A stretch of DNA of 64,000 nt from Siphonodentalium dalli (taxonomy: Eukaryota > Mollusca > Scaphopoda > Gadilida > Siphonodentaliidae): NCBI GenBank assembly GCA_032622095.1, contig CP136061.1:218642373-218706372 (forward strand), in the 5' to 3' direction. Position 1 is the stretch's first letter; every line of letters starts with the position of its first letter. The notes beneath the pieces are model-generated. The model was not told where the DNA came from. It worked only from the letters and a program-made list of their open reading frames with translations, and ran no database searches. Positions 3,946 through 64,000 of this stretch are shown one piece after another. The translations under genes and the position numbers were made by a program.

Positions 3946-5018
3946 GGGGGGGGGGGGGGGGGGGGGGGGTAGTTGCAAAATCGTTCACTTTGTGATAGAA
4001 GCGCCAAACTTTCAGAGTTAATTGTTTAGTGGTTGGTGAGTATCACTAAACTGGCTGGTTCCATATTTTGGAGGTCAACTGACCTTTAATTTTACCTTGA
4101 CCTTTTTGAAAATCTCAGTTTTTGGGTTGGGTGGTTTATGCCATCCTTTTCTTGTGAAAATCGCATCTTCTCAGTTTCTCAATGCAATAATAGTTGGGAG
4201 GTGAACACGCTTAATTTGGGCCAAAACATATCCAAATTTTCATAAGATGGCCGCCGGAAGTTGAAAAATATGACATTTTTTCACAAATATCTTCTGGATA
4301 AATTCATGCTGTTTGGAACTGGTTGAGTAATGCAACTTTATTTTGTGTTTTGTATATTAACTGATCATTGGAGCAATTAAATATGGAATTATTGGGGTCC
4401 TAGCCCGATACCTCAAAAATTTGATTTTACAGAATGCGGTATAAAATTTCACAAAAAATCACAATTGGGATTCTAGACATATTTCAACAAGAAATGAACA
4501 GAACTTTGTAATGTAAGTGAGGCATATCATTACCTATGAATATTCCAAAATTCTTACTTTGGCTCAAAATGGCTGCCAATATGGCCGCCAAAATATGGAA
4601 AATGGTAAATATTACACCAGCGTGTCCTGCAATCGCTTACAAGTTGTGGTTGATGTATAAAATTGGCTATTCTGCATTCTATACATGGCCATCTTGGATG
4701 GTGAGTTTCAATTTTAGCTCATAAAAGTGTCATTATGTCTTAGCTTTACGAAAATATTTACATTTGTATACATTATACTTGATTTCCCGCTATAATTTGC
4801 ATAAAACTGATAAATAAAACATATCGTCTTTTTTAGGGGGTGTTCTACTTCCGGTCAATTTTTTTTCCAAGTTCCACTCATTGAAAAGCTGGAACCAGCT
4901 AGATTCTCATTTAGAATATGTTAAACTACATCTGTGCCAATTTTGGTGCTTCTATCAAAATGTGAACGATTTTTAGGTTTTCATGTAATTACCCCCCCCC
5001 CCCCCCCCCCCCCCCCCC
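3946..5018. mobile_element. 1.07-kb inverted-repeat element bracketed by poly-G and poly-C
   Basis: A 24-nt G run (3946-3969) and a 27-nt C run (4992-5018) are followed inward by inverted arms of about 110-130 bp. Both arms contain ATCGTTCAC, TGATAGAAGC and CTGGTTCC in mirror order. The interior has ATGGCCGCC-type repeats but no transposase. Confidence 0.65.
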
Positions 5019-45900: not shown

Positions 45901-48900
45901 CCAAATTGACAACACACACGGTCATTGTTATATATGAAATAAATGCATTGACTCTCGATGAAATCGTTTTCGTTAGTTTATCGCCGATAGATGCGTCCTG
46001 AATAGAGTAGTAAATATTTACAATTGAGCGTAGTTCTGACGATGTTTTCTATGGAGTTGTACGGTCGATTTGCTTAAAATTTTCCGGCAATATTAGTAGA
46101 ATGTGACATTCCTCCAGTTGTCATGGCGCCTGGATACTAACTTATAGGTTTCACGCACCCGAACAAGTACATAATATGTCTTTAAGGGAAGATGAATGCC
46201 CATCAATAACATTGAGGGAGGATAAATGCCGGCGTATAGCGAAGATGTTAGAAAGTCAAAACTATTTTGTGGTTGTGTTTTGAATCTCTGAACTGTTAAA
46301 CAATTGCCAAATAAATCTGATTTCTGTGAATTATGGCATAACAAGCTTGAAGGGGTACGCATCTAAGAAGCTTTTGTCGAGTTTTTTGGCAGTCGAACCA
46401 AACTTCTGCCAATAAGGTGCACAACTCCGGGGAAAAAAGTTGGACGGTGGTATATTATTGCAATAGACCTATATATCAAATATCAATTTAATTCGTTAAT
46501 ATTTCATTGAGTTATCGTACTAACGATGATAAAATTGTGATTAAAATAGACAAACTAAGACCCATAACTCCGGAATTTTTTTTCGGACAAACCAGGTTTT
46601 CGAACTCGTCCGAGATATTGTTGCAATAGACTCATATACCAAATATTGTTTAAATCGGTTAATATTTCATTGAGTTATCTCGCCAACGGTGATAACATTG
46701 CTAAAAATAGACAAACTACACATGTAAGACCCATAACTCTGCGAACAAAATTCGGACAAACCAGGTTTTCGAAATCATCCGAGATATTGTTGCAGGAGAC
46801 TCATATACCAAATATTGTTGAAATCGGTTAATATTTCATCGAGTTATCGCGCTAAACAGTGATAAAATTGCTAAAAATAAACAAACTAAGACCCATAACT
46901 CCGGGAATTTTTTTTGGACAAACCTGGTTTTCGAACTCGTCCGAGATATTGTTGCAAGAGTCTCATATACCAAATATTGTTGAAATTGGTTAATATTTGC
47001 ATGAGTTATCGCGCTATCGGTGAAAAACTAACTAAAAACCATCTGAGATGGATAACTCTTGTTAAAAAGTTTGGACGTGACCCATTTTCTACAGGCAGTC
47101 AATAGTCATTGGGAGCAACTAACATAACAAAAAATTTTTGAATCCGTTCACAAATGTCAAAGTTATAAGGCATTCTTTAGGCCCGCCCGCCCCTCGTCAA
47201 ACCATAAGTCGAGTTTTGAAAAACTCGACTAAAAACTGACAGGGATTTTTAGTGGGAATCCTACAAATATTAGGATTTTATGAGCCTCAGAAATATTTGG
47301 TATCGTTAGCATTGTGTTTGCTTTTTGAATCTCTGAACAGTAAACAAATTGCCAAATAAATTTGATTTCTGTGAATTATGGCATAAAACTGACGGGGATT
47401 TTTATTGGAAACCTACAAATATTTGATGAGCCTCAGAAATATTTGGTATCATTAGCTTCAAATGATGTAGGTAAGATAGATAATCATCACTGGCTCCAGA
47501 CAAAATTAACATCAGGGTAAGAAGAAATCAATATCACCTGTCAATACAAACGAGTCTGGGAATGTAGTATGTGAATACAAATACTGCTCAACTTACAATG
47601 AGGCCTAAAATTAGACTGGTCTAAATAGCATGCGATGGTTGTTTTTTTTTTTTTGCGAAAATTTATTAGTTCAAGAGAGTACATGTTGTATGTTATTTAC
47701 CTGGTTGGAAATTTTCATAAATGCCTGTCTAAATTCAAGTTGATAAGACAAGCTTAACTGGGCCATCTCTTATACCATTGGATTATATAAGATTACTACA
47801 TTTGAGAATCTATTAAATTGTACATTTTATTTTTTTTACCGTGTCATAGGTAAATTGAGGCCATACCACAAACATTAATATAGTTTTACGGACACAGAAA
47901 CATATATAAAACAATGTAAGTTAAAAAACATTAGAATGTCAGTATATCAATGCCATCTGACATTGGCACAACTTTTGGCATCATCACAACCAACATTACG
48001 AATATCCTGTTCAAAACTGAATTTTTCCAATAAATATTATAACAAACTTGTTTCAACATGAGCCTTGGGGAGAAATTATTGTCATTTGATTCATATGATG
48101 TAGGCAGGTAAGATGTAAATCATCACTGGCTCAAACTTGGAATTTATCTCGTCAGCCCAAGCTATATTGTAACACATTGTGACCAGCATACATTTAGCAG
48201 CTACTTTATAACTTTAACCCGATGATCCATGCCCAAGTTGCAAGCTGAAATTTTCATATCGACCCGTATGGAGAAAATTATGAAATTTCCAAGTCAAACA
48301 AGGGCTGTAACTCGGGTAGAAATGAATGAACGAAACCCATAGTGGGTATCCTTGCGCCCCCCCCCCCCCCCCCCCCAACCTGTGCCATCACCATGAAAAA
48401 GGACAACGAAATCTGATAATTAACAGCCAAGTTACAAGGTGATATGTTCAGAGGGACTGACTGACCGATGGACACCCCCTCCTACAGGGGTTGGAGGCAT
48501 AATATTCTTGAAATCAGAAGGTCATTTATTTCATGCTACAGTCAATGTAGGTAAGGAAATATTTTCATCACATTCCAAGGTATTCAGGAAGACCTCCACT
48601 TGGGGACACTGAATCATTCAGAAATGAAATTTGTGTAATTATTGTTTCCGATTGATGTATTTTAAGTCATCAACCAAAGATCGGGGAAATGTTTTTTTTT
48701 TCAAACTGACATTTAAGCTATCGCATTTTAATTTATTAACTATGAACAATCCGAACATATAATATAAAATAACCTAAATGTTATCTATACTACAGCAAAA
48801 AAAAAAAAAATTTAACACCCAAACAGTTCCAATTATATAAATTATTAAATAATATACATGTGCCAAAACTTGCTCAAATGTGTCAACAATGTAACACCCA

Positions 48901-51900
48901 GCACAGTAGGTAATTTTGATTTAGCATAGGCAATGTCAAAAATGCCAAATATTTTTCTACTTATCATATTTTGACATGAACATATCACTTATAAATATGG
49001 CGATTCTGTACAAGACAATAACTTGAGAAAACTATTTTGTGGTTGCATTTTGAATCTCTGAACAGTAAACAAATTGCCAAATAAATTTGATTTCTGTGAA
49101 TTATGGCATAAAACTGGAATCCTACAAATATTTGACGAGCCTCAGAAATATTTGATATCATTAGCTTCAAATGATGTAGGTAAGATAGATAATCATCACT
49201 GGCTCCAGACATAATTAGCATCAGGGTCAGTCGACGTAAACATCTCCGTAATAATTATAATATTGTCAGATGAATTTATATGATATACTGAGTCGAAATT
49301 TATGTCGACTGCATCAGGGTGAGAGGAAATCAAGAAGAACACCTGTCAATACAAACAAGACTGGGAAGTATCTGAAAACACTCGGTAATATGTGAATACA
49401 AAAACTGTTGAACTAACGAGGCCTAAAATGAAACTTTGGTCTAAATAGCATGGGATGGATTTGTTTCTTTTTGCAAAAATATTCCCAGAAAATAAAATTA
49501 AAGTTGACAAGACAAGCTTACCTGAGCCATCTATTCAATGTATTCATATACAATTGGATTATATAATACTACTACATTTAAGCATGTCATCACGATGCAA
49601 AGACAACAAAATCCGATAATTATCACCTGATTTACAAGGTGATATGTTCAGACGGATACAAAATTCCACGTGAAACCAGGGCCACAACTCTGGTAATAAT
49701 TAGTGGACGCAACAGTAGTATGTGGGTATCCATTCCCCCAACCAGTGCTACCACCATGAAAACGCACAGCAAAATCTGATAATTAACAGCCAAGTTACAA
49801 GGTGATACATTCGGACTGACAGATGGACACCTCGTCCTATGGGGGGGGGGGTCGGGGCATATCCTTGAAATCGGAACTCGAAAGATAATTTATTTCATGC
49901 TACAGTCAATGAACGTAAGGAAATATTTTCATCACATTCCTAGGTATTCAGGAATACCTCCACTTGGGACACTGAATCATACAGAAATGAAATTGTGTAA
50001 TTATTGTTTCCGATTGGTGCAAGCCATCAACAGCAGGTCAGAGAAATGTATTTTTTTTTTCAAACTGACATTTAAGTTATTACATTTTAATTTAGTACTA
50101 TGAACTATAAAACATTTACAGTAAAATTGTGTCAACTATGTACACACAGCATGGTAGGTATATTCGATTTAGCATAGGCAATGTCAAAAATGCCAAATAT
50201 TTTTCTACTTCTCATATTCTGACATGCAGTAACATATCACTTATAAATATGTCTATTCTGTACAAGACAAATTGACTTGAGAAGACTGTTTTGTGGTTTC
50301 GTTTTGAATCTCTGAACAATAAAACAATTGCCAAATAAATTGGATTTCGGTTATTATGACATAAAACTGAAAACTGATTTTTATTGGAATCCTACAAATA
50401 TTAGGATATGATGAGCCTCAGAAAAATTTGGTATCATTAGCTTCAAATGATGTAGGTAAGATAGATAATCATCACTGGCTCCAGACAAAACTGAGGTGTG
50501 ACTACGGATACCCCCCTGTTTTTAAAATACTAAGATGTTTCACATGTCAGTAAACATTTAGTTAAAATAATAAAATAACAGTTCCCATTGCAGGTGTACA
50601 ACCATAACCCTAATCTTAAACCTATTGACCGAAAAATGTAGGAATAAAAGCTCGGACAAAAGTATACATGTTGCGAAAAATTTCTAAGTCGAAAAAGGGG
50701 GGGATAACTCCACGAAAAAAAGTCCGACAGACGTCATAATCGCAGGTGCACAGATTCCCATGGTGGTTGATGTCTGTGCCAAGTTTCACGACAATTGATC
50801 AAAAAACGACAGAAAAACTCCGGACAAATTTGTGTCCACGGACAGACAAACTGACTCCAATATACCCCACCTAACTTCGTTGCGGGGGGTTATAACTAGA
50901 GGTGTGACTGCAGGTGCACAGGTTCCCATGGTGGTTGATGTCTGTGCCAAGATTCACGGAAAATGATCATAAAACAACTGAGAAAACTCCTGACAAATTT
51001 GTGTCCACGGACGGATGGACGGACAAGCTGATTCCAGTATAATTAACATCAGGGTGAGAGGAAATCAAGAAGAACACCTGTCAATACAAACGAGTCTGGG
51101 AAGGATCTGAGAACACTTAACTTACAATGAGGTCTAAAATTAAACTTCGTTCTAAATAGCATGTGATGGATTGGTTTGTTCTTTGCGAAAAAATTCAGAC
51201 GATATTGATTAGAAGAGATTTTTTTTCTGAAATTGACATATGATACTTTCATAACACCTTTTAGTTTACTTGCTTAGAAATTTACATAAATGCGTGTTTA
51301 AATTTAAGTTTATATAAAAGGTCCAAAAAAAAAAAAACGTCTGTTTCCAGTACCCGGCCTGGCTGAGATTTTCTTGCCGTCCTCATTTTTATTTTTTATT
51401 TTCACGAAGTCCATAGTAACCTGTCTGAGTTAATGGCTATGGTTTTCCCCAATACCAACAGCAGAACTAACGACCAAACGCATACACACCCGAGTCGCCT
51501 GATGCATGTGTAGGCCATGTGCGCGATCGCGCATTCTTGATATAAATAAGACAACTAGGTCGGCCATGCTACGAAGTGAATACCGTGGCGTAAATCAAAC
51601 TCTACCCTGACTGGTCACTATGGAAATCCCCCCCCCCCCCGTCTTTTGTGGGCTGTGTATTTTTAAAAGTACAATGTATTAATTATACCGGTAGCTCCCT
51701 TAACTTCCTTCGCCTAATTGGGGGCAAAACTTTCCTGAAAGACCATCTGTTTGCGACAAAATTAAACAGTGAAAAGCATGTGCGTTTTTGGCGGGAAAAT
51801 GAGTCCGTATTACGTTATCAGTCCTAGAAATTAGCGTCGTCAAAAGCTGAAATCACCATCACCATTGACAAGACGAAATCGTCGTCAAAGATTAAAATGC

Positions 51901-53524
51901 ATTGGCAATCCTTGAATATTCACATAAAACCGATTTTAACCCACTTTAAATAAACAACTGTCTGTTATGAATGACACAACTGGGTCACTGTGTCAACAAC
52001 CAAACGCATCAGTGGGTTACGTGAATAAACTCTAACTATTTACGACAGACTCTCTTTGATGTTTTCTGACCAAGTATCAGATACCACTGATAGACACAAC
52101 TTGCACTGTATATTTCTGATCATCTGATGTGCATACATGTACTGTAAGGACTATTTGATAACTTGCTGTTAATTACACTGAAAGTTGGCAGGTGATCAAT
52201 TCTGCTATTTAAAACTTTCCGGGATTGAAACAAAATAAGTCGGAAATAGGTGACTTTAAACCACAATACAATTTAGTGATTTAGTAATATGGACAAGTTG
52301 TCACTGTCAGAACAATAATGATCATAATGTGAAGAGAAATAACAGGGGATGAAAATACAACATGTTTTATTGAAATGGCAAGTATTTATTCCATAAAACG
52401 ATCTCTCTCTCAACACCAAACACCTTGAATTTTGCATCGGCAGTGATGCATAGATTGGCATAAAATGTGTAAACTCAGGCCCAATCTACACCAGAGATGA
52501 ACAAAACATGTTTATTCCTGCATATCCAAGAACAGTCAGTAACATTGTTCTGGTCACATGTAATTTGTAAATAAAGGTATCAGATGCTACTGTTGCATTG
52601 TGGGCTGGTAGCTGCATGGACTACATGTATCTAAGAGGAATAACTCTAAACCCATGGCCATAGCCTAATACATTGAATTTTCACACTGGAGCACATACTA
52701 GAGCTAGAAAATATCTTGCAACACCTAATACATGACATAATAGTCCAGCAAGCTGCATAATATATTACCAGTTAGCATGTATAAAAGCATGCCAATTTTA
52801 TAATACATGTTAAAAGGGTGTACTACACTATTTTATCACTTTCAAATGGCCGGTTTAAAAAAAAAAACTCTAAAAAAAAAAAAAAAACCCTGCCTGCCTA
52901 CCTGGAAAATTTTCCCCATGTTATCAGTGATGTTATCGGAAACATACATGTTTTTTTTTGGCCTAAGACAAGCTGACCATATACAATTGGATTATATAAG
53001 ACTATTACATTCGAGAACCCTGTTAAATTGTTTTCTATTTTCTATTTGTTTTTTTTACCTTTTCATTGATGCCCTACTACATACATTAGTAGTTTTACAG
53101 ACAGAGAAACAAATTAAATGAAGTAAGTTGAAAAACATTAGCATGTCTATTATATCAATGCCATCTGACATTGCCACAACAAACATTCCATCTTATTCAA
53201 AACTAACTTTTTCCAATAAATATTATAACAAAATTGTTTCAACTTGAGCCTCAGGGATAAATTATTGTCATTTGATTCATATGATGTAGGTAAGATGTAA
53301 ATCATCACTGGCTCAAACTTGGAATTTATCTTTTCAGCCTGAGCTATATTGTAACACATTGTCATTGTGACTAGCATACATTTAGCTCTTACTTTATAAC
53401 TGCAGAATTCTAATGGCCCATAGCAGTTCTCTGAAACACATCCTGATTGTTCACTTACGTTTATTCCTGATGAAGGACCCTGAGATATTGATTCCCTCAC
53501 ATCTGACAACTACAATACGCTGAC
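33897..53524 (-). CDS. RPL13A: RPL13A, 60S ribosomal protein L13a (uL13), spliced, 5' end missing
   Basis: Structural protein of the large cytosolic ribosomal subunit. Five exons on the minus strand join in phase: 53524-53459, 41263-41162, 39969-39824, 37113-36991, 33980-33897. All introns have GT donors and AG acceptors. The joined product (about 173 residues visible) follows the family along its length: [12 protein letters not shown], then [10 protein letters not shown], then [11 protein letters not shown], then HEVGWKYQ, then a Lys/Ala-rich C-terminus ending FGHC. The family is about 200 residues long, so roughly 28-30 N-terminal residues (the DGRGHLLGRLA part) are missing; I searched 53525-64000 for them without success. 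Visible introns are 11.9, 1.2, 2.7 and 3.0 kb, long for a ribosomal protein gene, enlarged by snoRNA duplication and transposons. It is not a processed pseudogene, because introns are present and the frame is open. Confidence 0.96.
34146..35080. mobile_element. TIR transposon with 3-bp TAA target duplication
   Basis: Ends GGCCATAGGAAGTTGATTC (34146) and its near-inverse (35080) form TIRs of about 37 bp, continuing through TTTCTCAGACAC. TAA flanks both ends (34143-34145 and 35081-35083). A 3-bp TWA duplication suggests the PIF/Harbinger superfamily, but no transposase is visible. The right end lies only 12 bp from the Mutator-like element. Confidence 0.78.
34347..34858 (+). pseudogene. Broken ORF carried inside the 34.1-35.1 kb TIR element
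   Basis: Two overlapping frames appear to be one former gene broken by a frameshift near 34635. The first half starts with ATG at 34347 and reads [20 protein letters not shown] onward through [17 protein letters not shown] and [17 protein letters not shown]. The second continues [20 protein letters not shown] then [17 protein letters not shown] and ends with a charged stretch before TAA at about 34858. About 170 residues in total. The Cys cluster (CNYQCGC...CIQC) could bind metal. I do not recognise the family. It is antisense to RPL13A. Confidence 0.45.
35093..36025. mobile_element. Mutator-like non-autonomous element
   Basis: Long terminal inverted repeats of about 100 bp (35093-35196 and 35925-36025), starting TAGTCCAAGTCTTCTC, with only a few mismatches. 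Flanked by a perfect 9-bp target duplication TATAGGACC (35084-35092 and 36026-36034). Long TIRs with 9-bp duplications are the Mutator (MULE) hallmark. The ~730-bp interior is AT-rich with no transposase. Located in the last RPL13A intron. Confidence 0.85.
36991..37113 (-). CDS. RPL13A: RPL13A exon (fourth visible)
   Basis: 123-nt exon (41 codons, phase 0 at both ends), acceptor GTCTTTCAG, donor GTAAGC. It encodes [16 protein letters not shown] followed by a basic helix rich in Lys ([19 protein letters not shown]). HEVGWKYQ matches the conserved family motif. Confidence 0.95.
38229..39716. mobile_element. hAT-type DNA transposon remnant in an RPL13A intron
   Basis: Inverted ends TAGGGCTGCAAC (38229) and GTTGCAGCCCTA (39716) are typical of hAT elements. 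They are flanked by an 8-bp near-duplicate ATATTGAT (38221-38228) / ATATTGAC (39717-39724). Subterminal regions hold further inverted pieces around TCGCGAT. The 1.5 kb interior lacks a full transposase. A short plus-strand ORF (39489-39692) has HFGF...[14 protein letters not shown], like the start of a BED zinc finger. Confidence 0.85.
39489..39692 (+). pseudogene. BED-finger-like transposase fragment
   Basis: 68-codon ORF inside the hAT remnant. SHVCKHFGF followed about 20 residues later by CKVGKSC resembles the start of a ZBED/hAT BED domain, but the second Cys pair and the His-x-His end are absent. It sits at the right end of the element, reading outward, so it cannot be the start of an intact transposase. 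Internal deletion is the likely reason. Confidence 0.4.
39824..39969 (-). CDS. RPL13A: RPL13A exon (third visible)
   Basis: 146-nt exon, acceptor TATTTCAG, donor GTAAGA, ending in phase 0. It encodes [10 protein letters not shown], then [19 protein letters not shown], then [17 protein letters not shown]. The [11 protein letters not shown] block is diagnostic of uL13. This is the largest visible exon. Confidence 0.97.
39970..41161 (-). other. RPL13A intron without recognised element
   Basis: 1.2 kb AT-rich intron. One weak C/D-like pairing of motifs (40694-40765) was judged insufficient. No transposon ends seen. Confidence 0.6.
41162..41263 (-). CDS. RPL13A: RPL13A exon (second visible)
   Basis: 102-nt exon between a TTTTCAG acceptor and a GTTTGT donor. 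It completes the split Leu codon from the previous exon and reads [17 protein letters not shown] followed by [16 protein letters not shown]. The [10 protein letters not shown] motif is a family signature. It ends with one base of a Gly codon. Confidence 0.95.
41264..42250 (-). other. Start of the 11.9-kb RPL13A intron, unannotated
   Basis: AT-rich, contains a local GCTGGAGCCATAAAATGGC region but no gene, snoRNA or clear element end. Confidence 0.5.
42255..45864. mobile_element. Possible TTAA-type DNA transposon
   Basis: TTAA-CGAGGT at 42251 and ACCTCG-TTAA (the AACCTCGTTAA at 45858-45868) would form a short TIR with TTAA target duplication, as in Kolobok or piggyBac groups. GC-rich CCGCGGT motifs lie just inside both ends. 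No transposase ORF is visible and the TIR match is only about 7 bp plus TTAA, so this is tentative. Confidence 0.35.
43137..44854. repeat. Seven copies of a 15-bp motif GTCATTGGTGTTACC
   Basis: Direct copies at 43137, 43329, 43485, 43500, 44820 and 44840, plus an inverted copy at 43522-43535 that forms a hairpin with the copy at 43500. Two pairs are tight tandems. Spacing is irregular. The role is unknown. Confidence 0.85.
46380..47215. repeat. Tandem array, ~170-bp units with CATAACTC core
   Basis: About four units, each with CCCATAACTCCG, TTTTCGAACTCGTCCGAGA, TCATATACCAAATATTGTT and GAGTTATCGCGC. A related partial unit lies at 45720-45830. It belongs to the wider CCATAACTC repeat superfamily in this window. 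Confidence 0.8.
47280..47310 (-). pseudogene. Truncated SNORD34-like 3' half (lineage I)
   Basis: Holds the box D half (CTGAGGCTCA on the minus strand and the adjacent AAATATTT) of lineage I. The guide and box C half are missing; the sequence jumps to an unrelated join next to another duplicate block. Confidence 0.7.
47428..47496 (-). ncRNA. SNORD34: SNORD34-like box C/D snoRNA (lineage I)
   Basis: Box C GTGATGA at 47490-47484, box D CTGA at 47436-47433, five-base-pair terminal stem GAGCC/GGCTC. Guide TTACCTACATCAT then TTGA. Probable C' box AATGATA follows the D'. Confidence 0.84.
48060..48132 (-). pseudogene. Decayed SNORD34-like copy (lineage III)
   Basis: Matches the copy at 53246-53314, including GAGCC/GGCTC and box C. 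Box D reads CCAA instead of CTGA, and a short insertion splits the guide (CTTACCTGCCTACAT). Probably non-functional. Confidence 0.75.
48507..48579 (-). ncRNA. SNORD34: SNORD34-like box C/D snoRNA (lineage II)
   Basis: Box C GTGATGA at 48571-48565, box D CTGA at 48517-48514. A seven-pair terminal stem CTTGGAA/TTTCAAG (one G-U) closes it. The guide TTCCTTACCTACATTG gives the longest match to the 28S CAAUGUAGGUAAGG region in the window. Outside the guide it differs completely from lineages I and III, so it is an old duplicate or an independent origin. Confidence 0.82.
49137..49205 (-). ncRNA. SNORD34: SNORD34-like box C/D snoRNA (lineage I)
   Basis: Box C GTGATGA at 49199-49193, box D CTGA at 49145-49142, stem GAGCC/GGCTC. 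Guide and D' as in the 50413 copy. It lies in a duplicated block that also carries GAATCTCTGAACAGTAAAC upstream on the plus strand. Confidence 0.84.
49864..49943 (-). pseudogene. Decayed SNORD34-like copy (lineage II)
   Basis: Closely similar to the RNA at 48507-48579, with box C intact (49935-49929). Box D has become CCGA, the guide core reads CTTACGTTCATTG, and extra bases separate box D from the guide. Not expected to work. Confidence 0.75.
50413..50481 (-). ncRNA. SNORD34: SNORD34-like box C/D snoRNA (lineage I)
   Basis: Terminal stem GAGCC/GGCTC, box C GTGATGA at 50475-50469, box D CTGA at 50421-50418. Guide CTTACCTACATCAT precedes a D'-like TTGA. Nearly identical to the copies at 49137 and 47428, with one base change near box D. 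Confidence 0.84.
51240..52960. other. Intronic stretch without recognised gene
   Basis: Contains poly-A and poly-C runs (51328, 51630). A segment at about 52855-52965 with CCTGCCTGCCTACC and GGAAACATACATG resembles part of the hAT-type element at 39400-39475. No ORF or RNA recognised. Confidence 0.5.
53246..53314 (-). ncRNA. SNORD34: SNORD34-like box C/D snoRNA (lineage III)
   Basis: Minus strand: terminal stem GAGCC/GGCTC at 53314 and 53246, box C GTGATGA at 53308-53302, box D CTGA at 53254-53251. The internal guide CTTACCTACAT is complementary to the near-universal 28S AUGUAGGUAAG, the SNORD34 target (human 28S U2824). 69 nt long; human SNORD34 is about 66 nt. Confidence 0.84.
53459..53524 (-). 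CDS. RPL13A: RPL13A exon (first visible)
   Basis: 66-nt exon after a TTTCAG acceptor (intron base 53525 upward) and before a GTAAGTG donor (53458-53452). It starts in phase 2 and ends in phase 1, encoding (G)[21 protein letters not shown]-(L), the strongly conserved uL13 segment. A SNORD34-like RNA begins about 145 nt downstream of its donor. Confidence 0.95.
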
Positions 53525-53709
53525 CTGAAAATAAGCAGACAAATATCGGTATTCAGAATAAATAATTTGAATTGTCCACTGTCCAGTCAATTTACTATAA
53601 CAGTTGTCTGAACGCTGATCTGGAAAAGACTTTATATCCATTTAAATAATTTTAGACCACACTGCCCGTTTAGTATGTTCACGTTGAATTATGTTTTAAT
53701 TTATGTCTG

Positions 53710-53790
53710 TCGTTCCTCAGATAGTAGTGCATGTGAAGGTCATAATCATTGCACTCATACAAGCGGTGTATAGGCATCATCATGTGACCT
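53710..53790 (-). ncRNA. SNORD33: SNORD33-like box C/D snoRNA, copy 1 (B subtype)
   Basis: Box C ATGATGA at 53783-53777 and box D CTGA at 53720-53717. Next to box D lies the guide CATGCACTACTAT, complementary to the universal 18S GGUGGUGCAUG stretch with G-U wobbles. The fifth base before box D is A, facing the residue equal to human 18S U1326. Lies in the RPL13A intron, same strand, 0.19 kb upstream of the 53.5 kb exon. Confidence 0.82.
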
Positions 53791-54258
53791 GATAGACATA
53801 ATGGAAAGATAGCACAAGTGTTCTTATATTATACATACATGTATCTAAAAAAATAAATACAAGTTCATTCAAATAATAATGTCAATGCACTTTCACACAT
53901 AAGTGTCAACTCAATAACACTAAAGCTTTAATATGCGCGAGGGAATAATTTTAAATATAACATGAAACTGTTTTGTTTTTTTATATTATAGCACTGCACA
54001 CAAACATATAGCATGAAGTATGCTTTTGATTAAGAAACATGATGATTGGTCAACATTCAAATGAATTATTAATGAAAAGGACAGGTGTTGGCCAAAATAT
54101 CTTTCCGATCAACTATAAAGTTTCAAGTCAAAACAAACTTAGAAAATGGCAAGACCGCACTGAGGTGGAAAAACAGGAAACGAAATACATTAGAATAAAA
54201 TATATGAATTATTCTCTCGATATGAACTGTTCTATGTAGTGTTGTTACTTTGTCTGTA

Positions 54259-54336
54259 GGTCTTCAGATGGTAGTGCATGTATATGTCATAATCATTGCA
54301 CTCATACAAGCGGTGTATAGGCATCATCATGCGACC
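54259..54336 (-). ncRNA. SNORD33: SNORD33-like box C/D snoRNA, copy 2 (A subtype)
   Basis: Box C ATGATGA at 54330-54324, box D CTGA at 54267-54264. A terminal GGTC/GACC stem closes the RNA at 54336 and 54259. The guide-plus-box ACATGCACTACCATCTGA is, as I recall human SNORD33, identical over 18 nt. A 2'-O-methylation guide for 18S U1326 is expected. Confidence 0.85.
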
Positions 54337-54704
54337 TGATAGACAATGGTAAGATAGCACAAGTGTTCTTATATTATACATACATGTATCTAAAAATATA
54401 TTCAATTTTATTAAAATGATAATGTCAATGCACTTTCACAAGTGTCAACTCAATAACACTAAAGCTTTATAATATGTGTGAGGGAATAATTTATAACATG
54501 AAATTGTTTTGTTATTTTTTATATTTATATAGCACTGCAAACATACAGCATGAAGTATGCTTTTGATTGTCCACTGTCCAGTCAATTTACTATAACAGTT
54601 GTCTGAACACTGATCTGGAAAAGACTTTATATCCATTTAAATCATTTTAGACCACACTGCCCGTTTAGTATGTTCATGTTGAATTCTGTTTTATGTTATG
54701 TCCG

Positions 54705-54786
54705 TCATTCCTCAGATAGTAGTGCATGTGAAGGTCATAATCATTGCACTCATACAAGCGGTGTATAGGCATCATCATGTGACCTG
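54705..54786 (-). ncRNA. SNORD33: SNORD33-like box C/D snoRNA, copy 3 (B subtype)
   Basis: Box C at 54778-54772, box D at 54715-54712, B-type guide (CTACTAT before box D). No GGTC/GACC stem; GTCT and AGAC a little farther out could pair instead. 448 bp from copy 2. Confidence 0.8.
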
Positions 54787-55153
54787 ATAGACATAATGGA
54801 AAGATAGCACAATTGTTCTTATATTATACATACATGTATCTAAAAAAATATATACAATTTTATTCAAATAATAATGTCAATGCACTTTCACAAGTCTCAA
54901 CTCAATAACACTAAAGCTTTAATATGTGTGAGGGAATAATTTATAACATGAAACGTTTTTTTTTTTATATATATATTATAGCACTGCACACAAACATATA
55001 GCATGAAGTATGCTTTTGATTAAGAAACATGATGATTAGTCAACATTTCAAATGAATTATTAATGAAAAGGACAGGTGTTGGCCAAAATATCTTTCCGAT
55101 CAACTATCAAGTCAAAACAAACTTAGAAAATGGCAAGACCGCACTTGAGGTGG

Positions 55154-55318
55154 AAAAACGGGAAACGAAATACATTTAGAATAAAATATATGAATTATTC
55201 TCTCGATATGAACTGTTCTATGTAGTGTTGTTACTTAGTAACAACACTACATAGAACAGTTCATATCGAGAGAATAATTCATATATTTTATTCTAAATGT
55301 ATTTCGTTTCCCGTTTTT
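55154..55318. repeat. Near-perfect 82-bp-arm palindrome in the snoRNA array
   Basis: Arms 55154-55235 and 55237-55318 are inverse copies around the base at 55236 (GTTACT-T-AGTAAC). The right arm is an inverted repeat of the A-unit sequence, after which the unit resumes at CTTTGTCTGTAGG. Confidence 0.9.
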
Positions 55319-55340
55319 GCACTTGAGTACTTTGTCTGTA

Positions 55341-55418
55341 GGTCTTCAGATGGTAGTGCATGTATAGGTCATAATCATTGCACTCATACAAGCGGTGTAT
55401 AGGCATCATCATGCGACC
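55341..55418 (-). ncRNA. SNORD33: SNORD33-like box C/D snoRNA, copy 4 (A subtype)
   Basis: Box C at 55412-55406, box D at 55349-55346, GGTC/GACC stem at the ends, A-type guide CTACCAT. It follows the 165-bp palindrome at 55154-55318, which makes this unit about 94 bp longer than its sister units. Confidence 0.84.
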
Positions 55419-55784
55419 TGATAGACATAATGGTAAGATAGCACAAGTGTTCTTATATTATACACATCTAAATAAATATATACAATTTTATTAAAATGAT
55501 AATGTCAATGCACTTTCACAAGTGTCAACTCAATAACACTAAAGCTTTATAATATGTGTGAGGGAATAATTTATAACATGAAATTGTTTTGTTATTTTTT
55601 ATATTTATATAGCACTGCAAACATACAGCATGAAGTATGCTTTTGATTGTCCACTGTCCAGTCAATTTACTATAACAGTTGTCTGAACGCTGATCTGGAA
55701 AAGACTTTATATCCATTTAAATCATTTTAGACCACACTGCCCGTTTAGTATGTTCACGTTGAATTATGTTTTAATTTATGTCTG

Positions 55785-55866
55785 TCCATCCTCAGATAGT
55801 AGTGCATGTGAAGGTCATAATCATTGCACTCATACAAGCGGTGTATAGGCATCATCATGTGATCGG
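55785..55866 (-). ncRNA. SNORD33: SNORD33-like box C/D snoRNA, copy 5 (B subtype)
   Basis: Box C at 55858-55852, box D at 55795-55792, B-type guide. The internal sequence equals the other copies; only the region outside box C (GATCGG) has changed. Confidence 0.8.
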
Positions 55867-56326
55867 ATAGACATAATGGAAAGATAGCACAAGTGTTCTT
55901 ATATTATACATACATGTATCTAAAAAAATATATACAATTTTATTAAAATGATAATGTCAATGCACTTTCACAAGTGTCAACTCAATAACACTAAAGCTTT
56001 ATAATATGTGTGAGGGAATAATTTATAACATGAAACTGTTTTTTTTTATATATATTATAGCACTGCACACAAACATAGCATGAAGTATGCTTTTGATTAA
56101 GAAACATGATGATTAGTCAACATTTCAAATGAATTATTAATGAAAAGGACAGGTGTTGGCCAAAATATCTTTCCGATCAACTGTAAAGTTCAAGTCAAAA
56201 CAAACTTAGAATGTGCCAAGACTGCACGGAGGTGGAAAAACAGGAAACGAAATACATTTAGAATAAAATATATGAATTATTCTCTCGATATGATCTGTTC
56301 TATGTAGTGTTGTTACTTTGTCTGTA

Positions 56327-56404
56327 GGTCTTCAGATGGTAGTGCATGTATAGGTCATAATCATTGCACTCATACAAGCGGTGTATAGGCATCATCATGT
56401 GACC
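56327..56404 (-). ncRNA. SNORD33: SNORD33-like box C/D snoRNA, copy 6 (A subtype)
   Basis: Box C at 56398-56392, box D at 56335-56332, GGTC/GACC terminal stem, A-type guide CTACCAT. Confidence 0.84.
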
Positions 56405-56772
56405 TGATAGACATAACGGAAAGATAGCACAAGTGTTCTTATATTATACATACATGTATCTAAAAATATATACAATTTTATTAAAATGATAATGTCAATG
56501 CACTTTCACAAGTGTCAACTCAATAACACTAAAGCTTTAATATGTGTGAGGGAATAATTTATAACATGAAATTGTTTTGTTATTTTTTATATTTATATAG
56601 CACTGCAAACATACAGCATGAAGTATGCTTTTGATTGTCCACTGTCCAGTCAATTTACTATAACAGTTGTCTGAACGCTGATCTGGAAAAGACTTTATAT
56701 CCATTTAAATCATTTTAGACCACACTGCCCGTTTAGTATGTTCATGTTGAATTCTGTTTTATGTTATGTCTG

Positions 56773-56854
56773 TCATTCCTCAGATAGTAGTGCATGTGAA
56801 GGTCATAATCATTGCACTCATACAAGCGGTGTATAGGCATCATCATGTGATCTG
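56773..56854 (-). ncRNA. SNORD33: SNORD33-like box C/D snoRNA, copy 7 (B subtype)
   Basis: Box C at 56846-56840, box D at 56783-56780, B-type guide CTACTAT. 448 bp from copy 6, the same interval as other A-to-B steps. Confidence 0.8.
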
Positions 56855-57308
56855 ATAGACATAATGGAAAGATAGCACAATTGTTCTTATATTATACATA
56901 CATGTATCTAAAAAAATATATACAATTTTATTCAAATAATAATGTCAATGCACTTTCACAAGTGTCAACTCAATAACACTAAAGTTTAATATGCATGAGG
57001 GAATAATTTATAACATGAAACGGTTTTGTTTTTTTTATATTATAGCACTGCACACAAACATATAGCGTATGCTTTTGATTAAGAAACATGATGATTGGTC
57101 AACATTTCAAATGAATTATTAATGAAAAGGACAGGTGTTAGCCAAAATATCTTTCCGATCAACTATAAAGTTTCAAGTCAAAACAAACTTAGAATGTGGC
57201 AAGACCGCACTGAGGTGGAAAAACAGGAAACTAAATACATTTAGAATAAATATATGAATTATTCTCTCGATATGATCTGTTCTATGTAGTGTTGTTACTT
57301 TGTCTGTA

Positions 57309-57386
57309 GGTCTTCAGATGGTAGTGCATGTATAGGTCATAATCATTGCACTCATACAAGCGGTGTATAGGCATCATCATGTAACC
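57309..57386 (-). ncRNA. SNORD33: SNORD33-like box C/D snoRNA, copy 8 (A subtype)
   Basis: Box C at 57380-57374, box D at 57317-57314, A-type guide. One base of the terminal stem differs (GGTT on the 5' side), which still allows a G-U pair. Confidence 0.82.
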
Positions 57387-57763
57387 TGATAGACATAATG
57401 GAAAGATAGCACAAGTGTTCTTATATTATACATATCTAAATAAAAATATACAATTTTATTAAAATGATAATGTCAATGCACTTTCACAAGTGTCAACTCA
57501 ATAACACTAAAGCTTTATATTATATAAATATGTGTGAGGGAATAATTTATAACATGAAATTGTTTTGTTATTTTTAATATTATAGCACTGCACAAACATA
57601 CAGCATGAAGTATGCTTTTGATTGTCCACTGTCCAGTCAATTTACTATAACAGTTGTCTGAACGAACGCTGATCTGGAAAAGACTTTATATCCATTTAAA
57701 TCATTTTAGACCACACTGCCCGTTTAGTATGTTCATGTTGAATTCTGTTTTATGTTATGTCTG

Positions 57764-57845
57764 TCATTCCTCAGATAGTAGTGCATGTGAAGGTCATAAT
57801 CATTGCACTCATACAAGCGGTGTATAGGCATCATCATGTGATCTG
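57764..57845 (-). ncRNA. SNORD33: SNORD33-like box C/D snoRNA, copy 9 (B subtype)
   Basis: Box C at 57837-57831, box D at 57774-57771, B-type guide. Copies 9 and 10 are consecutive B units, breaking the A/B alternation. Confidence 0.8.
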
Positions 57846-58218
57846 ATAGACATAATGGAAAGATAGCACAAGTGTTCTTATATTATACATACATGTATCT
57901 AAAAAAATATATACAATTTTATTAAAATGATAATGTCAATGCACTTTCACAAGTGTCAACTCAATAACACTAAAGCTTTATAATATGTGTGAGGGAATAA
58001 TTTATAACATGAAATTGTTTTGTTATTTTTAATATTATAGCACTGCACAAACATACAGCATGAAGTATGCTTTTGATTGTCCGCTGTCCAGTCAATTTAC
58101 TATAACAGTTGTCTGAACGAACGCTGATCTGGAAAAGACTTTATATCCATTTAAATCATTTTAGACCACACTGCCCGTTTAGTATGTTCATGTTGAATTC
58201 TGTTTTATGTTATGTCTG

Positions 58219-58300
58219 TCATTCCTCAGATAGTAGTGCATGTGAAGGTCATAATCATTGCACTCATACAAGCGGTGTATAGGCATCATCATGTGATCTG
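58219..58300 (-). ncRNA. SNORD33: SNORD33-like box C/D snoRNA, copy 10 (B subtype)
   Basis: Box C at 58292-58286, box D at 58229-58226, B-type guide. 455 bp from copy 9, and its flanks are almost identical to those of copy 9, so it looks like a recent unit duplication. Confidence 0.8.
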
Positions 58301-58758
58301 ATAGACATAATGGAAAGATAGCACAAGTGTTCTTATATTATACATACATGTATCTAAAAAAATATATACAATTTTATTCAAATGATAATGTCAATGCACT
58401 TTCACAAGTGTCAACTCAATAACACTAAAGCTTTATAATATGTGTGAGGGAATAATTTATAACATGAAATTGTTTTGTTATTTTTTATATTATAGCACTG
58501 CACAAACATACAGCATGAAGTATGCTTTTGATTAAGAAACATGATGATTGGTCAACATTTCAAATAAATTATTAATGAAAATGACATGTGTTAGCAGAAA
58601 TATCTTTCCGATAAACTATAAAATTTCAAGTCAAAACAAACTTAAAATGTGGCAAGATCGCACCGAGGTCGAAAAACAGGAAACGAGCTACATTTAGAAT
58701 AAAATATATGAATTATTCTCTCGATATGATCTGTTCTATGTAGTGTTGTTACTTTGTA

Positions 58759-58836
58759 GGTCCTCAGATGGTAGTGCATGTATAGGTCATAATCATTGCA
58801 CTCATACAAGCGGTGTATAGGCATCATCATGTGACC
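58759..58836 (-). ncRNA. SNORD33: SNORD33-like box C/D snoRNA, copy 11 (A subtype)
   Basis: Box C at 58830-58824, box D at 58767-58764, GGTC/GACC stem intact (CTGAGGACC on the 3' side), A-type guide. It ends the contiguous array. Confidence 0.84.
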
Positions 58837-58869
58837 TGATAGACATAATGGTCAGATAGCACAAGTGTT

Positions 58870-60719
58870 ATATATTATAGTTTATACGCATCGCAAACAA
58901 TTTAATTTTAATTCAAATAATTACTGTCCATTCTATATAAATTAGACCGTATTTCATTCCAAACAACTTGCGGTCTAAGGACTCTCAATGTTAAAATTAT
59001 TTCAAAAGGGAGAAATCGAGCCAATGAGCAGCGAACAATGTGTTGCTTGACCAATGAATAGTTTCCTGCAAATTCAATTAATATTCACTTATTCTGCGTT
59101 ATTTGACTGCAATCTCATTAAGTTATCGAATAAACTACATGTTAGCATAGTGTATCTTAACTGACCAACAAATTGTATGTTCAAAATCAAAACTAACATG
59201 CATGTTCGTTTGGAACTCGGGAAATTCTGACGTCAAGTTGAGCTAACGAGAGGCCGATCACGATTGGCAGATGTTAACCCATCCCTTGGCGATGATTTTG
59301 AACCGATTTAAACAAATTTGGTGTGGTGATTCGGGGTACCATTGGCAGAGTTATAATGATGTTAGTTTTTCAAATTTGTTTAACTTAAAAATAAATTGTT
59401 TTTACTTATTTAAAAAAATTAAAGGGACACATTGGGAACCATTTTATCAACTTGTATCATAATCATCAATATCTAAATGAAAACAAATGAAAGAGTCAAT
59501 GACATTTTTTTTATTATTATTATAAAAGTTATAAAAAAAAAAAATCTTTCGAAAAAGGGTCATAACTCCTTTAAAATAAATCGGATCAAACCCATATTCG
59601 AACTCACTCAGTATTTTGGGATGTGAAACTCACATACCAAATTTGGTTCCAATCAGATAAAAAATGTTTGAGTTATGGCAGAATGTGTTAATTCAGAGTG
59701 GAAAAAGGGCCATAACTCTGTAACAAAATCTCGGATCAAATCCAAATTCAAACTCGATATGTATTTTGGGCTGAGAAACCCATATACAAAATTTGGTTCC
59801 GATCGGATAGAAAATGTTTGAGTTATCGCATTATGTACTCGCATACCAAATTTACATACATCTCAATTTTATTAAGTATCAGGAATGTTGAGAAGGGTTC
59901 ATTTTAACTACAAAAGTCCATACTGTACAATCGAATGGGATATAATAGGAGAATGACTACATGAAAAATATGCAAAAGCATAAAATTGATGACTAGGGTT
60001 AACAATTTTAACTCTATAAAATTAGGGGACTGTATGTCACTTGAACAATGCATTGATAGGCTAAATCTGACAAAGAGCTGCCTGGGAGTCCTGAGCCAAC
60101 AGGGTCCACACACTATGGAAATACAATAAACAGATGGCTAGCAGCAGTGAGTATCAGATTTCATTATCAATAATAGAGTTTAACTCTAGTCTCTTTCTCA
60201 CAGATACCACAGTTAATTATAAGCTGCTTCTGGTTATATGTTGTAAGCAAATCTCAAATCGGTTTAATTCTAAGTTAAAACGGGGCCATAACTCCGGTAT
60301 AAAAAACAGGATCTGACCCATATTCAAACTCGATCTGTATTTTGAGTTGACAAACTCACATACCAAATATGGTTCCTATCAGATGAAAACTAGTAGATTT
60401 ATTGAAGCATGCATGAATTCTATGTCAAAGGGCCATAACTCCATTAAAAATAATCTGATCAAACCCATATTCGAACTCGAACTGTATGTTAGGTGGAGAA
60501 ACTGACATACCAAATTTGGTTCTGATCAGATCATTTTTTTTTAGTTATCATAGAATTCGTGAATTCTAAGTCGAAAAAGGGCCATAACTCCGTAAATAAA
60601 ACTCCGATCAAATCCATATTCGAACTCGATCTGTATTTTGGGCCAAGAAACTTACATACCAAATTTGGTTCCGATCAGATAGAAAATATTTCAGTTATCG
60701 CACCATGCGTAAAGTGTCT

Positions 60720-60777
<58 letters not shown>

Positions 60778-60945
60778 GGACGGACGGACGGACTAACGAC
60801 GAGTGGTCAATCCGGGCAACGACACTATGTTTACCATACTATGGTATGGGTAAACATAAAAAAGGGGATCCCCTTCAATTCTGAAATCAGTTAGAATGTC
60901 ATCAGACATAGTTGAAAGTAATGCGATGGAGTCTGGATATTTATC
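58870..60945. repeat. Inserted CCATAACTC-family repeats separating snoRNA copies 11 and 12
   Basis: Begins near the hairpin head GCCGATCACGATTGGC (about 59252), followed by units with GGTCATAACTCC and CCCATATTCGAACTC at 59550-59830 and 60270-60700. It ends with a (GACA)n/(GGAC)n run and the palindromic tail around CCATACTATGGTATGG at 60834. 58870-59240 holds nothing recognised. Confidence 0.75.
60719..60793 (+). repeat. (GACA)n/(GGAC)n microsatellite
   Basis: About 14 GACA units followed by GGAC units, at the place where related elements carry shorter GACG runs; followed by a hairpin tail. Confidence 0.95.
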
Positions 60946-60949
60946 AGAC

Positions 60950-61445
60950 TGTGTATTGTTACAAGTGTCACGTCAATAACACTAAAGCTAAATATGAGCG
61001 AGGGAGGAATTTATAACTTGAATTTTTTTTTTTTATATTAAAACTTTATTTTAAAGAATTCATTAACTCCAAGAAAAGTGCATGTGTTTAAATAGCACTG
61101 AATACAAACACAGCATGAAGAATACTCTTTGGTTAAGAAACATGACAATTGGTTCATCAGCAACATTTCAAAGCATTATTAATGAAAACGACAGGTGCTA
61201 GCCGAAATATCTTTCTGATCAACTATAAAGGTTAAAGTCAAAACAAACTTAGAACGTGGCAAGACAACACTGTGGAAGAACTAGCTACATTCAGAAAAAA
61301 ATATAAATTATTATCTCGATAGGATCGGTTCTATGTAGTGTTGTTACTTTGTCTCTAGGTCCTCAGATGGTAGTGCATGTATAGGTCGTAATCATTGCAC
61401 TCATACAAGCGGTGTATAGGCATCATCATGCGACCTGATGGACAA
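60950..61445 (-). repeat. Diverged outlying A-type snoRNA unit
   Basis: Contains AATAACACTAAAGCT, the AAGAAACATGA block and the snoRNA in the same order as array A units, but with many substitutions and small indels. Separated from the array by the repeat insertion at about 59240-60870. Confidence 0.8.
61358..61435 (-). ncRNA. SNORD33: SNORD33-like box C/D snoRNA, copy 12 (A subtype, isolated)
   Basis: Box C at 61429-61423, box D at 61366-61363, GGTC/GACC stem and A-type guide all intact. It is 2.6 kb beyond copy 11, separated by inserted repeats, and its flanks have diverged more than those of the array. The snoRNA body has stayed nearly unchanged, which suggests selection. It may be the oldest copy. 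Confidence 0.86.
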
Positions 61446-63190
61446 ATGTTCACTAGCACAAGTGTACAAATTTTGTGCAAGGAATATAGTTATAATTCAA
61501 TTCTGCTTAAAATAATGACTGTTAGAACTGCCACAAGTTTCAAATTAACGACACTCTCACACGGCATCGATTATAAATGTACTTCAGTGCATGTCGAGTA
61601 ATCCAATGTGTCCCATGCGATGCTCCAGTGCGAAGGGAAGTAATTCAATACCCAGCAATATATATGGCGGTACTTGGTCAGAAATCGCTCAATAATCATT
61701 ACAAATGCGAGTGTCATAACATAAGGCGTCATTTGCATCATGTTTCGGGATGATCAGTAAGGATATTATGCAGTCAATAATTATATTGAAAATATTGGGA
61801 AATCTAAATCTGCTCAGTTACAACTTACTTAACTCAGTATACTTAATTAGATGTCAAGGATCTTGGGAGTCCAGAATGGTGTGTACCATAATGATTGCTA
61901 CATAATTATGTGGTTATCGTAATCTCCCTTCTGTTATAGTCAAATGTTTTGAAGACTTTTTCGATAATATATTAGAAAAATTCACAGGAGTCTACAAGTG
62001 TGGGAGGTTTCAATAATTTATTGAATCTTTGCGATAATTTTGAATGAAATCGAACCTTAGGTAGCAATACACGATTTCATGGCTTGTATGAGGGCTGAAA
62101 AATATTATTTTAAGCATATAAGGGCTATAACTCTCAGTTTGGCCTCTATTATACCTGGGAGTAATGGTTTGATGGTTTAATTATTTTATAAAGGTACCAT
62201 ACATGTAGTATACAAAATGGGAGAATGTTTGAATACAAAGTATGTTTATGGAATCTGATGTCGGCCAGCTCTGTGTGGTACTCCACCGGAAAAGAGCTTG
62301 ATTTCTCTCCCTTGAAAACAGTCGTCTGCACTTGGTAGAATTTTTTTTTAAATTGATACGATAAGTTTAAAAAAAAAATTAATATCTGACATATATCTAG
62401 TCTCTATCAGCTCATAAGGTGATTATAGACTGACATTCGCTCTGTCATGGTTAGCTATGCGACCGAAGACGGCCAATTTTAGGCCAACAAATGAAGATTT
62501 TCCAAAGTCGGTCTAAGGGAGATAATTCGACTTGTGATGAGGTAATTCATGCCAAAAGACAGATGGATTATGCTCTGACCATTTCTGTATCTTGTAACGA
62601 AGCACTCATGTGCTGTTTATCAATGACCATGGTGCAGCAGAAGGTTGTAGTACAGTACCCCCCTCAAAATGGTGAAAATGGCCAGAAATAGTGTATTGCT
62701 ACCTCAAACATGATTTCACATCGAATTGAATCTCGAACATCAGAGTAAACAAATAAAAGTGTAAAGTACACATATTTTCTTTGTGGGAAAGTAGGTAGAG
62801 AACAGGAAGTGATCAGATGGCTTTCATACGAAGAGTTCTCCAAATTTGTGAAAATCAAATATATCGAGTACAGCAAACAAAATTTATCCAAAATTCCACA
62901 AGAATCATAATTCTGATAGGGAAGCCCTGCTTACATTTATTGTGTCCAAAAATCAACATATAAAATATGGGCAGGATTCTCTATTCGGAAGGTTCATTAT
63001 TCGGAAGGTTTTTATTTCTGGGCGAATTTAGCCAGAAATTAATCAAAAGTTAGATACCCCCCCCCCCCCCCCCCCCCAAAAACCACATTAATTATTAATT
63101 ATACAACAGTGTCATTTACAGTATTCCTGTTATGCATTATTATCTATTACATGACTATCTACATATTTATTTATTATTATATTATAAAGT
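61446..63190. other. No gene recognised near the right end
   Basis: If copy 12 is intronic, this is the continuing RPL13A intron. I searched the minus strand for the missing DGRGHLLGRLA exon and did not find it. A poly-C run lies at 63058-63077. Confidence 0.45.
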
Positions 63191-63192
63191 TA

Positions 63193-63355
63193 TTATACAA
63201 TGTTGTGTACAGTATGTGTTTTTCTTGTACGAGTCCAGGTTGTGGTGAAAAGTCATATTGGACGAGACACGGCAGTGTCGAGTCCAATATGACTTTTTCA
63301 CCACAACATGGACGAGTACAAGAAAAACTCATACTGTACACAACATTGTATAATG
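63193..63355. mobile_element. Foldback element
   Basis: Arms of about 77 bp pair around GACAC-GGCA-GTGTC (63266-63279), with few mismatches and one single-base indel. Arms contain TGTGTACAGTATG and TTGGTGAAAA-like segments and GTCATATTGGAC. A related single arm lies at about 63618-63672. Confidence 0.75.
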
Positions 63356-63605
63356 ACATTTTTATTATCCATCTGTATGTTTATCCAAATTTTGGGAATA
63401 AAACTTTTGTGGTTATTTTTGGTATTTGTCGGCACTTAAATCTCTATAAAAGCCTGTATATTGATCATCAGAAAGCATGATTTGGAAAAGTAAACACGGA
63501 AGTGAGAAAAAAAAACTCAATGCGGAAGTGAAACGTCTGCTAAAATCCATCAGTGTTGCGCGCGCATCACAATTTCACGATTCATTTAGCAAGAGAGTTA
63601 ATTTG

Positions 63606-63613
63606 TGACGTCA
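63606..63613. promoter_or_regulatory. CRE-type palindrome TGACGTCA
   Basis: Perfect CREB/ATF consensus about 40 bp from a CpG-rich GCGCGCGC stretch at 63558. It could mark a promoter, but no transcript start is identified. Confidence 0.25.
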
Positions 63614-64000
63614 CGGAGTCCCAATAAAAAAGTGATATTGTACAGTCGGGAGTCCAAAATGACTTTTTCCAGGACTATCACGTGGCGGCTTTTGCCCAAT
63701 CGGAAATGGGGTTAGTTAAGGGATGGATAATAATATATTATTTATCTTGTTTACTGAAACTATTTATAATACATTGCGTAACGTAAATATGTATTGAGAA
63801 ATAATGTCATACGTAATGACATTAAATCTTGTGGAAATCTACTAAAGAAAAGCACATTTTATAATCGTTTTAATGTTTCAAGTTATTTCCTGCATAAAGA
63901 AAGAGTCTTCGAGATAGACACCTCTCAATTCTTTAGACACCTCTCAATTCTTTAGAATGTATAATTAACCATTAAAATAACTTGAACCGTCGGTACAGCG

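Follow-up and report, generated by a model that had tools for sequence, protein, structure and literature searches.

A tandem array of box C/D small nucleolar RNAs (snoRNAs) lies within one intron of the ribosomal protein gene RPL13A in a 64,000-nucleotide (nt) stretch of the genome of the scaphopod mollusc Siphonodentalium dalli (assembly GCA_032622095.1, contig CP136061.1, positions 218,642,373 to 218,706,372 of the forward strand; hereafter the window). In particular, 12 box C/D elements occupy window positions 53717-61429 on the minus strand, which is also the strand of RPL13A, and all 12 measure exactly 67 nt from ATGATGA to CTGA, end to end. A thirteenth copy begins 136 bases beyond the window, in the stretch past its end (L001), where L001:136-202 corresponds to C1:218706508-218706574. 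Box C (RUGAUGA) and box D (CUGA) are present in all 13 copies. An initial annotation, made from the letters of the window, had described twelve copies of a SNORD33-like snoRNA in a single RPL13A intron; the boxes, the length, the strand, the host and the SNORD33-like identity are all borne out, and the twelve copies are all present, but the total was too low, since one copy lies outside the window.

A SNORD33-like array in intron 2 of RPL13A

The exons of RPL13A were sought by tblastn with a human RPL13A query, and two of the minus-strand matches (L001 6549-6626 and window 53454-53525) enclose the array. The splice sites read from the sequence (AACG/GTATGT and TTTTCAG/GTCAGC) bound a GT-AG intron of phase 1 that runs from 53525 to 64000 in the window and on to L001:6550, for a total of 17,026 bp; it is called intron 2 here, a numbering that presumes one further unlocated exon upstream. 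All 13 copies lie within this intron, between two coding exons; in the copy closest to the acceptor, about 190 nt separate box D from the splice site.

The copies, numbered u01 to u13 from the 3′ end of the intron, are of two types: seven type A copies with the guide CATGCACTACCAT, and six type B copies with the guide CATGCACTACTAT. They were scored with cmscan against the Rfam covariance model RF00133 (SNORD33/SNORD32), which has a gathering score of 44 bits. All seven type A copies exceed it (46.1-54.8 bits): u02 (54264-54330, 54.8 bits), u04 (55346-55412, 53.4 bits), u06 (56332-56398, 53.5 bits), u08 (57314-57380, 51 bits), u11 (58764-58830, 53.4 bits, with a diverged upstream flank), u12 (61363-61429, 48.5 bits, with diverged flanks) and u13 outside the window (46.1 bits). 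The type B copies are u01 (53717-53783, 40.4 bits), u03 (54712-54778, 39.2 bits), u05 (55792-55858, 44.1 bits), u07 (56780-56846, 39.4 bits), u09 (57771-57837, 39.4 bits) and u10 (58226-58292, 39.4 bits). The Infernal scoring by which the initial annotation had proposed to check the copies therefore divides them: seven of the 12 window copies reach the gathering score (44.1-54.8 bits) but the remaining five stay at 39.2-40.4 bits (E 0.0006-0.0011). Further, a motif scan for box C, box D and a stem of at least 5 pairs, from window position 33501 to L001:10000, gives six matches on the minus strand, all of them type A array copies, against a random expectation of 0.6; on the plus strand it gives one match against 0.25 in random sequence.

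Unit types and growth of the array

Read from u01 to u13, the types follow the order B A B A B A B A B B A A A. The array includes four A-B dimers of 988-1080 bp with mutual identities of 96.5-97.3%, while the pair u10-u11 has 88-89% identity to the four dimers over the compared part, and the flanks of u11-u13 have diverged further than those of other units. Moreover, about 2 kb of other sequence separates u11 from u12. The dimer pattern suggests that the array grew by unequal crossing-over of an A-B dimer. A mobile-element origin was considered and set aside, as two spacer probes matched places on C1 and one place on C7 only, in a search that passes over very common words.

Two other features were noted within the array. 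The sequence interrupting a unit at window positions of about 58931-60952 (roughly 2 kb) contains repeats of the GGGCCATAACTCC type together with an (ACAG)n tract. Unit u04 contains an inverted repeat (55150-55322) with 86-nt arms that are 99% complementary and 1 nt apart, which probably accounts for a sub-threshold MIR6024 match at 55179-55293.

Related copies elsewhere in the genome

With one array copy as the query, a search for C/D copies across the whole 2.23-Gb assembly (9 contigs) returned 21 matches: the 13 array copies, six copies on C8 and two more on C7. A closer comparison among the matches listed found a seventh copy on C8, so that the C8 total is at least seven. The RF00133 model itself identifies at least 11 places over the cut-off genome-wide (eight in the array, one on C7 and two on C8), and its counts are lower bounds.

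The C8 copies form a loose cluster at C8:91960208-92017633 (L007-L012), where at least seven SNORD33-like copies lie about 2.6-20 kb apart. Three of the seven are damaged, and two C8 copies hold a shifted ATGATGA, with the failure lying in the guide. No convincing RPL13A exon is found on C8 among the matches listed and no host gene is recognised there; the longest reading frames (best 25) resemble transposable elements by eye. The two copies on C7 stand singly, at C7:130296683 (L003) and C7:29085260 (L014), and box D is damaged in both. The first of them retains type A flanks and, in a tree of 22 copies, falls among the recent type A copies; in the same tree the C8 copies group with the copy c7b (0.98), that group joins type B (0.91), and the other nodes have mixed support. 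Flanking DNA is shared by the first C7 copy and several of those on C8, and duplication at the DNA level therefore fits better than retroposition.

Constraint on snoRNA bodies and flanks

Over the first 41 nt of the body, the 13 array copies do not differ at all. To compare bodies with flanks, variable gap-free columns were counted in eight groupings of copies. The six type B copies have no variable column among 67 in the body and 48 among 351 in the flanks (p = 1.3e-4), and the contrast persists when u01 is left out (0/67 and 22/353, p = 0.02). Larger contrasts are found when older copies are included: 1/67 and 86/323 for the type A copies u02, u06, u08 and u11 (p = 1.8e-7), 6/67 and 47/100 for type A without u04 (p = 6.8e-8), and 7/67 and 45/66 for all 13 copies (p = 2.6e-12). 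Alignment error inflates the contrast wherever the flanks can hardly be aligned, and the type B result is therefore the cleanest of these comparisons.

Terminal stems, guide and predicted target

Stems and covariation were examined in an alignment of 17 of the 22 copies, which omits u04, owing to its palindrome, and the damaged copies c8_91969185, c8_91988091, c8_92010603 and c7b; as a result, the stem counts lean towards intact copies. The inner terminal stem has 5 pairs in six type A copies and 4 in u13. It is flanked on the outside by an external stem, UGUCU/AGACA, whose five pairs are complete in nine of the 12 array copies counted (u04 is not aligned); u12 and u13 retain 4 pairs and u11 is gapped. 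The external stem takes the form UGUAU/AUGCA in three of the four C8 copies counted, although two of the three copies with the changed pair are near-identical. Overall, 93.6% of the cells of the external stem and 78.8% of those of the inner stem are paired, and the whole structure is 86.1% paired, as compared with 27.5-42.3% when it is slid. In shuffle controls, 12 of 500 alignments had as many paired cells and 20 of 500 had as high a covariation score; for cells changed on both sides and for further pair types, the counts were 96 and 408 of 500.

The guide of all seven type A copies is that of the RF00133 consensus, and in all six type B copies it differs from type A by one base, giving a G-U pair. 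Duplex energies were computed against an assumed stretch of 18S ribosomal RNA (rRNA) that does not come from this genome. The type A guide forms a 13-nt pairing with one G-U and an energy of -22.5 kcal/mol; the type B guide forms a 13-nt pairing with two G-U and -20.2 kcal/mol; for each type, none of 2000 shuffled guides matches the energy. The initial annotation had placed an 18S-complementary guide next to box D, which agrees with these pairings, but the exact complement of GGTGGTGCATG that it implied is absent from the window. The target of such a guide is the base paired to the fifth nucleotide upstream of box D. In the 18S stretch used, whose numbering we assume, the U of GGU faces this fifth base, and we take it to be 18S-U1326. 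PMC6466398 lists 18S-U1326 as the target of SNORD33. A second guide, before a possible box D′, was considered and rejected: its energy is -14.9 or -12.9 kcal/mol, depending on the placement of D′, and 177 and 231 of 2000 shuffles equal these values.

Interpretation of the array

These characteristics suggest that the array is probably a dosage array, one that multiplies a true methylation guide of the SNORD33 type. In favour of this reading are the Rfam match with the consensus guide of type A, the host intron and its splice sites, the contrast between bodies and flanks in most groupings, the external stem, the guide duplexes and the likeness of the dimers. So is the integrity of the copies: each of the 13 in RPL13A has box C, box D and guide intact, as compared with four of nine elsewhere (p = 0.005). 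The array would have grown by unequal crossing-over between units, and purifying selection would maintain the snoRNA bodies. Each copy would bind the C/D core proteins, aided by the terminal and external stems, and would guide 2′-O-methylation of the U in 18S that corresponds to human U1326, at the fifth base upstream of box D. Less certainly, the inner copies may be freed through cuts between units or by splicing-independent processing.

Several results weigh against this reading. Among the type B copies, only u05 (44.1 bits) exceeds the RF00133 cut-off and the other five of the six score 39.2-40.4 bits, so that type B can be named SNORD33-like only; the cut-off is in any case a poor sign of function, since two C8 copies pass it, as does a C7 copy whose box D is damaged. 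The inner stem of type B has only 3 or 4 of 5 pairs, and its second G-U adjoins the target base. Covariation is modest: for pairs in which both sides have changed, 164 of 500 shuffles score as high. When nine array copies and a C7 copy were folded with their flanks, they had no excess stability over shuffles (z from -1.83 to 0.23). The 18S sequence was sought in the assembly and not found, possibly because of a gap, and the target is an assumed one. The p value for the integrity of the copies is only a guide, since the copies are related and recent duplicates are counted as independent. Further, the contrast for u11-u13 (6/67 body and 31/90 flank columns, p = 1.2e-4) is inflated by misaligned old flanks, and recent type A copies have no significant contrast (1/67 and 13/250, p = 0.16, for u02, u04, u06 and u08; 1/67 and 19/346, p = 0.13, for u02, u06 and u08). 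The description of a constant body between differing spacers in the initial annotation is borne out, most cleanly for type B (p = 1.3e-4), although the contrast is not significant for the recent type A copies alone (p = 0.16). That annotation did not mention the A-B dimers, the weaker type B, the partly damaged copies on C7 and C8 or the SNORD34 copies of the next intron, which fall beyond its coordinates.

The same observations bear on three other explanations. The array could be a mostly neutral tandem repeat, in which unequal crossing-over and gene conversion homogenise the copies and only one or a few of them (for instance u01, close to the splice site, or the type A copies) yield snoRNA. 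We consider this rather unlikely, although the four dimers are alike along their whole length, the recent type A copies have no significant contrast between body and flank, and type B is structurally weaker; against it, type B bodies have 0/67 variable columns where their flanks have 48/351, the bodies of u11-u13 are alike despite drifted flanks, and no copy among the 13 has lost a box or its guide. A misassembly that inflated one or two copies is much harder to credit and appears highly improbable: the four dimers are 2.7-3.5% apart, the u11-u13 flanks have drifted and about 2 kb of other sequence separates u11 from u12, even though tandem repeats are hard to assemble and unit u04 contains the inverted repeat with 86-nt arms of 99% complementarity.

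A further alternative concerns the fate of the intron itself, which, if trimmed from its ends only, might persist as a very large snoRNA-ended long non-coding RNA (sno-lncRNA) that gathers C/D proteins. Its caps would be the outermost ribonucleoproteins, u01 on the 3′ side and either u13 or one of the SNORD34-like copies on the 5′ side, with the other copies studding the RNA. Two snoRNAs per intron are a route to such RNAs described in the excerpt of PMC11028025, and intron 2 holds 13 SNORD33-like and two SNORD34-like elements; a guide function explains the constraint on the bodies equally well, and this fate, as judged from sequence, is improbable, though compatible with the dosage reading.

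The dosage reading also raises the question of how the copies would be released. According to PMC8162545, most vertebrate C/D snoRNAs precede the acceptor at a conserved site, and the best position is about 50 nt before the branch point; according to PMC11028025, one snoRNA per intron is the predominant arrangement in animal genes. The latter paper adds that exonucleases halt at the outer small nucleolar ribonucleoproteins, so that an intron with two snoRNAs can give rise to a sno-lncRNA. The inner copies of the array are cut off from free intron ends and are far from the usual site near the branch point, and they would need another way of release. It is possible, though doubtful, either that RPL13A intron 2 becomes a giant sno-lncRNA with 13 SNORD33-type ribonucleoproteins or that the animal can release many snoRNAs from one intron of a ribosomal protein gene by efficient endonucleolytic cleavage; if true, either outcome departs from the predominant arrangement of one snoRNA per intron in animals.

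Relation to known snoRNA loci

The array shares with the vertebrate RPL13A snoRNAs SNORD33/SNORD32A (RF00133) its box C/D type and a guide before box D, CAUGCACUACCAU, that is the Rfam consensus, and, as in human, RPL13A hosts both the SNORD33 family and SNORD34. The human SNORD33-family copies in RPL13A occupy separate introns. PMC4378963 describes the human RPL13A cluster, in which two copies of the SNORD33 family and a single SNORD34 fit into 1 kb. In contrast to vertebrate SNORD33, the array has 13 copies of two alternating types in one intron.

Other repeated C/D snoRNAs differ in their hosts. Copies of SNORD116 lie in the introns of a repeated precursor transcript, and the introns that hold rat RBII-36 are repeated in tandem within a non-coding gene (both PMC8162545). 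Unlike SNORD115/SNORD116 and RBII-36, the copies here share one intron of a ribosomal protein gene and retain an rRNA guide; repeated introns of a non-coding host, as for SNORD116, are not what is found, all 13 copies lying between RPL13A coding exons. The locus resembles sno-lncRNA loci in having more than one snoRNA per intron but, unlike those described in the excerpt of PMC11028025, which have two, it has 13 of one snoRNA and two SNORD34-like elements. Suberites sponges likewise have a snoRNA duplicated within RPL13A, although that duplicate is an H/ACA snoRNA with two copies in neighbouring introns (PMC3412847, in part). Across 60 mammals, C/D families barely expand or contract above the family level and SNORD116 is variable, as stated in part of PMC13197249.

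Among the matches listed, the titles and abstract openings of the open-licence literature do not describe a comparable array. Tandem C/D arrays are already known, and what appears to be new is the presence of many intact rRNA-guide copies in one RPL13A intron. The 13-copy array makes testable whether selection acts on snoRNA dosage at one rRNA site, and how many snoRNAs one intron can release.

Remainder of the host gene and its SNORD34 copies

Downstream of the array, the minus-strand tblastn matches to RPL13A continue at window positions 41157-41264, 39755-39976 and 37000-37116. With the splice sites, exon 3 spans 53459-53524. Exons 4 (41157-41264), 5 (39820-39976) and 6 (37000-37116) have approximate ends, as does the last coding exon (33906-33986), which rests on a weak match (E 0.23). 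The exon near 39.9 kb scores 20.8 bits for Pfam Ribosomal_L13, below the cut-off of 23.8. When the whole genome was searched with the protein, each of the five matches fell on C1 and a second RPL13A was not found.

Intron 3 (41264-53458) holds an expansion of SNORD34 as well, with four copies above the Rfam cut-off and a decayed one on the minus strand between 47427 and 53316. The four score 42.5 bits (53244-53316), 38.2 bits (50412-50483), 39.9 bits (49135-49207) and 38.6 bits (47427-47498) for RF00147; the fifth (48058-48134, 26.3 bits, below the cut-off) has an insertion and has lost box D. A third C/D family, SNORD34-like, is represented on the same strand at 48508-48578 (27.1 bits for SNORD34, below the cut-off), and two further copies lie in intron 2, at L001:4179-4251 and 4854-4926, with a 7-bp terminal stem read by eye. 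No SNORD35 was found at E values up to 1 in window positions 20000-64000, L001 or L002, and a bacterial promoter scan of L001 was uninformative. Elsewhere in the genome, a match to Ribosomal_L13 (PF00572) covers 38 positions at C9:135441593-135441706 and has a stop inside.

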